Shown piece by piece: positions 1 through 24,594 of a DNA stretch of 64,000 nucleotides. Under the pieces are notes generated by a model. That model was given only the letters and a program-made list of their open reading frames with translations. It had not been told where the DNA came from and made no database searches. Position numbers and translations under genes: made by a program. The stretch comes from an uncultured Clostridia bacterium (lineage in GTDB: Bacteria > Bacillota > Clostridia > Oscillospirales > CAG-272), in assembly GCA_944391805.1 (NCBI GenBank), contig CALXUY010000049.1:1-64000 (forward strand). The letters are read 5' to 3'. Within the stretch, counting starts at the first letter, position 1; each line of letters starts with the position of its first letter.

Positions 1-217
1 GAAACGGCTTTCGTCAGTTTGATGAAAGTTTTGATCAAACTTTTTCAAAAGTTTGCGGGGTGGAGGGCGCGAAGCCCTCCTCGACGCCCGCAGGCGGCGA
101 AATTTCCTTACCGGCGTCTCTTTTTGCAAACTTTTTCTCTGCGCCTACTTCTTGCAGAGAAAAAGTGGCTATGGCTTTTGTGCAATTTTTATTTGATGCG
201 CCTTTTGTCTACAACTT
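1..217. repeat. Right part of a dispersed MITE-like repeat (copy 1)
   Basis: The 49 bases at 13-61 recur at 24275-24323, and the right end (about 184-215, ending in GCCTTTTGTCTACAA) recurs at 24535-24565. The centre differs between copies. The left end lies outside the window. No transposase gene is present; the short frames that read through both copies are not credible proteins. Confidence 0.75.
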
Positions 218-380
218 GAGGAACTTTTTTGCAAAAAAGTTTCATCAAAAAACTTTGAGGCCATGTCGGGGACCTCGCTCTGTCGGCCGGCGGCTTGCGG
301 CCTTCGCGGCCGCCGGCACCGGGGAATGATCAATTTATGGCCCGCAAAGGGGGTTCCGCAGAAAAAATTCCCGCTATGTG

Positions 381-24203: not shown

Positions 24204-24221
24204 AAAAACCGGCGGCGGAAG

Positions 24222-24246
24222 ACCGGAGCAGAAGCTCTGCTTCGGT
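24222..24246. repeat. 25-bp hairpin repeat, left copy
   Basis: The 25 bases here recur exactly at 24570-24594. Each copy folds as a short stem (AGCAGA/TCTGCT plus ACCG/CGGT). The two copies bracket the MITE-like element. It may be the gtrA transcript end duplicated around an insertion. Confidence 0.75.
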
Positions 24247-24569
24247 CAGACTGTAGACCAAAGCAAGGGCTTTTGTCAGTTTGATGAAAGTTTTGATCAA
24301 ACTTTTTCAAAAGTTTGCGGGGTCAAGGGCGAGTAGCCCTTGTCGCCCTCCGCAGAGGGCGAAATTCCCCTATACGGCGGCGAACTCGCGAAGCGATTCG
24401 CGGATTTGCTTGCAAATCCTTTTCTTATTTGAGCAAACTCTGCGAAAGCAGATTTGCGGCAGAGCAACGCGAAGCCTTTGCTTCTTTCTTTGCGCCTACA
24501 CGCTCAAAGAAAAAGCGGACGAACGCTTTTGTGCAATCTTAATTTGATGCGCCTTTTGTCTACAACCTG
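24247..24569. mobile_element. MITE-like repeat (copy 2), about 320 bp
   Basis: The ends are inverted: TGTAGACCAAAGC (24252-24264) on the left and, read inward from the right, TTGTAGACAAAAGGC (24565-24551). Interior segments 24275-24323 and 24535-24565 match the repeat at the window start. No transposase or convincing gene is inside. A non-autonomous dispersed element is the best reading. Confidence 0.7.
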
Positions 24570-24594
24570 ACCGGAGCAGAAGCTCTGCTTCGGT
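24570..24594. repeat. 25-bp hairpin repeat, right copy
   Basis: Exact copy of 24222-24246, here followed by TTTCC. See the left copy. Confidence 0.75.

Follow-up and report, generated by a model that had tools for sequence, protein, structure and literature searches.

The element located at 24247-24569 of the window (the whole stretch of DNA analysed in this work, positions 1-64000 of contig C49 in a 3.0-Mb draft genome of 101 contigs) is very probably a MITE of the IS1182 type, which takes terminators or other palindromes as its target, leaves a duplication with a length determined by the hairpin and would be mobilised in trans by a DDE transposase of the IS1182 family. Insertion of this MITE usually leaves one complete hairpin on each side; the length of the target duplication is therefore not constant but equals that of the hairpin (13-43 bp). 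Whole hairpins are likewise duplicated by intact IS1182-family elements whose ends are of the same kind.

The window element and its family

The full copy (24247-24569, forward strand; 323 bp with the outermost C and G counted) was delimited by blastn against its own genome and by its conserved ends. The left terminal inverted repeat, CAGACTGTAGACCAAAG (24247-24263, forward strand), corresponds to the consensus of the IS1182 relatives, CAGACTGTAGACAAAG, with one inserted base; the right one, which reads CAGGTTGTAGACAAAAG as reverse complement (24553-24569, reverse strand), differs from the same consensus by 2 substitutions and one inserted base, and belongs to the end type of a decayed IS1182 element at C5:94991. 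No transposase is coded in these 323 bp. The element lies between a gene for a GtrA-like membrane protein (PF04138; 23742-24203, forward strand), whose terminator was hit, and rimP (PF02576; 24842-25330, forward strand), both assigned by open reading frame and domain match. The terminator hairpin is present twice: its left copy (24222-24246, forward strand) starts 18 bases past the GtrA-like stop codon, and its right copy (24570-24594, forward strand), which ends in a run of T and is followed by TTTCC, is identical to the left one (25 of 25 bases, or 26 bp counting the preceding G at 24221/24569). This hairpin is unique to the locus: its 23-base core, with up to 3 mismatches allowed, was found only at these two places genome-wide (0 places for the reversed control pattern), and the 25-bp hairpin does not occur in the genome without the element. 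A chance match of a common terminator was ruled out, the 25-mer being unique in the genome.

A second copy, at the start of the window (1-218, forward strand), is cut off on its 5' side, window base 1 being also the first base of contig C49. Its right end, GTCTACAACTTG (207-218; 3'-type end at C49:217), adjoins the hairpin AGGAACTTTTTTGCAAAAAAGTTTC (219-243, forward strand), and two blocks are common to this copy and the one at 24247-24569 (86% over 108 bp and 83% over 87 bp). The first-pass annotation had described the imperfect inverted ends, the two identical 25-base hairpins bracketing the element and the two blocks common with the repeat at the window start; all of these were confirmed, their coordinates included. 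A T-box leader (Rfam RF00230, 111 bits) was located at 422-653, downstream of the truncated copy, which therefore sits just upstream of a tRNA-sensing leader.

The 373-nt stretch made up of the element and its hairpins is located between genes and folds far better than shuffled sequences (z −11.3), features that might suit a structured RNA or a regulatory repeat of the 3'-UTR and not a transposable element. Such an origin is, however, extremely improbable: Rfam searched at the gathering score gave only the T-box and two tRNAs in the 64-kb window, leaving the element unmatched; the ends match those of IS1182 elements; target duplications are present; and the inverted ends and duplicated hairpins largely explain the fold.

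The MITE belongs to a family which is not limited to the two copies of the window, since dozens of copies with consistent ends were present. Own-genome blastn with the window element gave 64 matches, several of them end to end and many split in two pieces because the middle of the element varies. The 11-base end motif GTCTACARYCT occurred in 125 exact copies, against 4 for the reversed motif. Forty-two complete copies spanned 232-503 bp with constant ends: some 50 positions at the start and some 85 at the end were common to nearly all of them, while blocks in the middle came and went. The idea of a family with variable cargo, put forward from the two window copies, thus stood only in part: the centre is indeed variable, but what varies is the presence or absence of internal blocks, and no carried gene was seen among the complete copies compared. 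Many copies were located at contig ends, as expected of a repeat that breaks short-read assembly. Related blocks were detected in 37 of the 118 genomes searched, its own included (E ≤ 1e-5). IS1182-type ends, short length, lack of a transposase, many copies and target duplication, the attributes of an IS1182-derived MITE, were all found.

A 67-bp mini-element (L080, G000:C41:3254-3320) with little beyond its inverted ends, AGACTGTAGAAAAAAGCGTCCA ... GGACGCGTTTTGTCTACAGCCT, was also observed beside a hairpin, and related ends were present at C37:31634 and C55:5064. It is a second, shorter type of MITE with the same termini.

Whole-hairpin duplication at the MITE copies

Other copies of the element were bracketed by hairpins of their own, different from that of the window. 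The flanks of 71 left-type (5'-type) and 60 right-type (3'-type) ends were compared, in a set based on the end-motif matches listed (100 of 125). A local-alignment score of at least 13 was reached by 33 of 43 own flank pairs and by 21 of 4217 non-own pairs, some of the latter being real partners split by a contig break (C38/C78, C57/C13 and C77/C15). One of the 43 own pairs was a mis-pairing across a nested insertion; hence, mapping the ends and looking for target duplications, as suggested in the first-pass annotation, showed duplication in 33 of 42 real copies. The strict end pattern left a further duplicated copy (C34:3481, score 18) outside the 42, and the complete copies in the loci of relatives that were examined were duplicated too (3 of 3).

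The duplicated stretch at the 33 copies measured 13-43 bp (median 27), was perfect in 13 of them, and adjoined the element on both sides, mostly within 1-2 bases. Thirty of the 33 duplications were palindromic, compared with 11 of 132 shifted windows of equal length, and hairpins scoring no lower than the 99th percentile for 4000 random positions were present at 48 of the 71 5'-type ends and at 38 of the 60 3'-type ends. A clear A or T tract at the foot of the hairpin was observed in only 11 of the 33, so that not all the duplicated MITE hairpins can be counted as terminators; a palindrome, rather than a working terminator, may suffice as target. The tracts gave no orientation call: of A before the left hairpin and T after the right one, T was higher in 8 of the 33 copies and A in 20, and an orientation test based on open reading frames admits spurious antisense frames.

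The proposal that the window element was inserted into a terminator-like hairpin, or next to one, and duplicated it is supported by nested and orthologous empty sites. The copy at C8:30474-30708 lies within another copy and interrupts a hairpin internal to it, 20 bp of which now stand on both sides; the homologous copies on C28 and C70 are uninterrupted at the same place and hold a single hairpin. In the relative G034, a comparison covering 1.06 Mb (about half of that genome) gave 10 distinct orthologous loci (11 rows for 43 copies), and the element was present in none of them. At C8:42498, GTTTCCGGTTTCCGGAAATC was found on both sides of the element and once at the orthologous empty site of G034. 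The own locus of the window element also lacks the element in G034 and has one terminator there; its sequence is different, so that the single hairpin preceding insertion is not shown letter by letter at this locus.

Duplication was absent in 9 of the 42 complete copies, most of them having two different hairpins. The element at C59:8886-9119 sits between two hairpins, neither of them duplicated. In its G034 partner (L256, G034:C12), two unrelated hairpins are directly adjacent, which indicates that insertion beside hairpins without duplication also occurs, as a second mode. Such copies, and the IS1182-family relatives that likewise lack the duplication (see below), may stem from recombination of one copy with another, from errors of assembly or from insertion between two neighbouring hairpins.

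The copy at C59:8886, flanked by two different hairpins that lie side by side in G034, is what would be expected if elements were generally inserted between pre-existing hairpins, and some mismatched flanks whose partner hairpin is found at another copy (C62/C31, C47/C10) fit repeated recombination between copies, the identity of hairpins then being due to secondary gene conversion. As an account of the family, either process is very unlikely: neither yields locus-specific identical pairs as a rule, the nested insertion has a single hairpin in the uninterrupted homologues, and perfect pairs were found at 32 IS1182-family elements from many genera (see below). Simple recombination between copies was dropped as a general cause.

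Transposase and IS1182-family relatives

The search for a transposase with matching ends, also called for in the first-pass annotation, led to the IS1182 family and to a decayed frame on contig C5. The end at C5:94991, GAGGTTGTAGACAAAAA, is of the MITE type, and behind it lies the broken reading frame of an IS1182-family transposase (PF05598, 6.5e-19; IS1182 model NF033551, 1.4e-36 for a 115-residue fragment, which is below the whole-protein cut-off). This broken frame was the only transposase fragment with the MITE end type found in the genome; the draft, 94% complete, may lack an intact one. No TGTAGAC end was found near the PF13751 matches at C10 and C21. Another IS1182-type transposase, with the end CAGTCTGTCGAAAAAG, was observed at contig ends (the tail of C23, L132, and the head of C78, L134), and the C23 element adjoins a perfect hairpin, CCCCGACATCAACAATGTTGATGTCGGGG.

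An intact relative at 62% identity (L125, in genome G068; L166 is the same place) matches the IS1182 model far more strongly (NF033551, 1.6e-140). L125 has the ends CAGACTGAAGACAAAG and is flanked by two different hairpins. Its reading frame (L125:523-2010) belongs to the IS1182 family, with 469 bits against the NF033551 cut-off of 270, a score that applies to this frame alone, the 80 loci described below being chosen by tblastn similarity to L125.

These 80 loci, out of 195 relatives found, came from a scan of one genome per species. In 50 of them both ends and their flanks could be read, a contig end truncated another 17, and the remaining 13 had no end match on one side. Two of these 13, L173 with two different hairpins and L208 with the same hairpin twice, do have their ends and dropped out through the placement of the search window. 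A perfect direct repeat of a whole hairpin (20-36 bp) was found in 32 of the 50, with Butyrivibrio, Eubacterium ruminantium, Fenollaria, Vagococcus, Secundilactobacillus and Streptococcus records among them; only 3 of 2450 non-own flank pairs reached the score. All 32 duplications were palindromic (11 of 128 shifted windows), and 31 had an A or T tract at the foot, as expected of intrinsic terminators. The other 18 were not duplicated, most of them having two different hairpins, a count that includes at least 2 loci with doubtful ends (L183 and L231). Loci at contig ends gave partner pairs within one genome (L192/L193, L204/L205 and L206/L207).

The high proportion of whole hairpins bears on another possible mechanism, stem-loop replacement, in which the hairpin is recognised but deleted, and those flanking the elements are leftovers or secondary duplications. 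IS1272, of the same family, is described as targeting hairpins without sequence specificity and without duplication (PMC5678879, PMC4923244), and some copies in this work also lacked one. For the MITE, this process nevertheless has very little chance of being the right one, since two whole hairpins were kept in 33 of the 42 copies and in 32 of the 50 relatives, the empty sites hold one hairpin, and the nested insertion contradicts it.

Proposed mechanism and comparison with known systems

The following mechanism is proposed from sequence comparisons for the duplication of hairpins by the MITE. An IS1182-family DDE transposase would recognise the common ends CAGACTGTAGAC(M)AAAG and mobilise the MITE in trans. 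The MITE inserts at intrinsic terminators and other short palindromes. The transposase would target an extruded cruciform (or hairpin) and join the two 3' ends of the transposon to the paired hairpins at their two 5' feet, which would lie together at the four-way junction whatever the length of the stem; gap repair would then copy the whole hairpin. Insertions of this kind would probably be mild, as each neighbouring transcript, once past the element, would find beyond it a complete hairpin that has kept its own U-tract. Whether a whole branch of IS1182-type transposases behaves in this way seems to us an evenly balanced question: its members would read the shape of DNA (the four-way junction formed when a terminator is extruded as a cruciform) and not its sequence, join both ends at the 5' feet and leave a duplication set by the palindrome, and the terminators kept on the far side would make nearly harmless landing sites available genome-wide.

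DDE elements normally give short target duplications of nearly constant length, which reports the spacing of the two strand-transfer sites. Here the length tracks the target palindrome (13-43 bp), an indication that a structure is targeted and one that opens the cruciform model to direct tests. Paired hairpins are also a handle for annotation: they mark insertions, divergence from one copy of the hairpin to the other may date these, and contigs can be joined by them across collapsed element copies. Near-identical hairpins at broken copies predict three such joins, between the ends of C38 and C78, between the ends of C57 and C13, and between the end of C77 and the start of C15. The doubled terminators beside such elements should affect transcript 3' ends in many Clostridia.

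The element resembles MITEs in general in being short, with inverted ends, no transposase, many copies and a target duplication, but the length of the duplication is variable here and set by the target palindrome. It resembles the IS1182 family in its ends (CAGACTGTAGACAAAG), in its palindrome or terminator targets and in the duplication of whole hairpins, seen in 32 of 50 relatives, and differs from it in having only 323 bp and no transposase. ISfinder reportedly lists duplications of 0-60 bp for IS1182, which may mean that whole-hairpin duplication has been noted there. In the literature searched, neither whole-hairpin duplication as the usual outcome nor a MITE family showing it many times, with empty sites, was found, only a drawn pathway.

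Hairpin targeting by IS1182-type elements is already known. The reports on IS1272 and TnSha1, IS1182-family elements of staphylococci, describe a hairpin target, often a terminator, with no primary sequence specificity (PMC4923244, PMC5678879), in which IS1272 replaces the hairpin without duplication (PMC5678879) and TnSha1 deletes part of it (PMC4923244). The target is thus alike, but the hairpin that is replaced or partly deleted in those accounts is duplicated whole here, and the removal of the hairpin without duplication that characterises IS1272-type stem-loop replacement was not the outcome found in this work. The closest precedent in the literature searched is 'pathway b' of the IS1272 model (Wan et al. 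2017, Fig. 13; PMC5678879), where whole-hairpin duplication is drawn as a possible pathway; the scheme is the same as that proposed here, and what is a drawn possibility there was seen many times in sequence, with empty sites, in this work.
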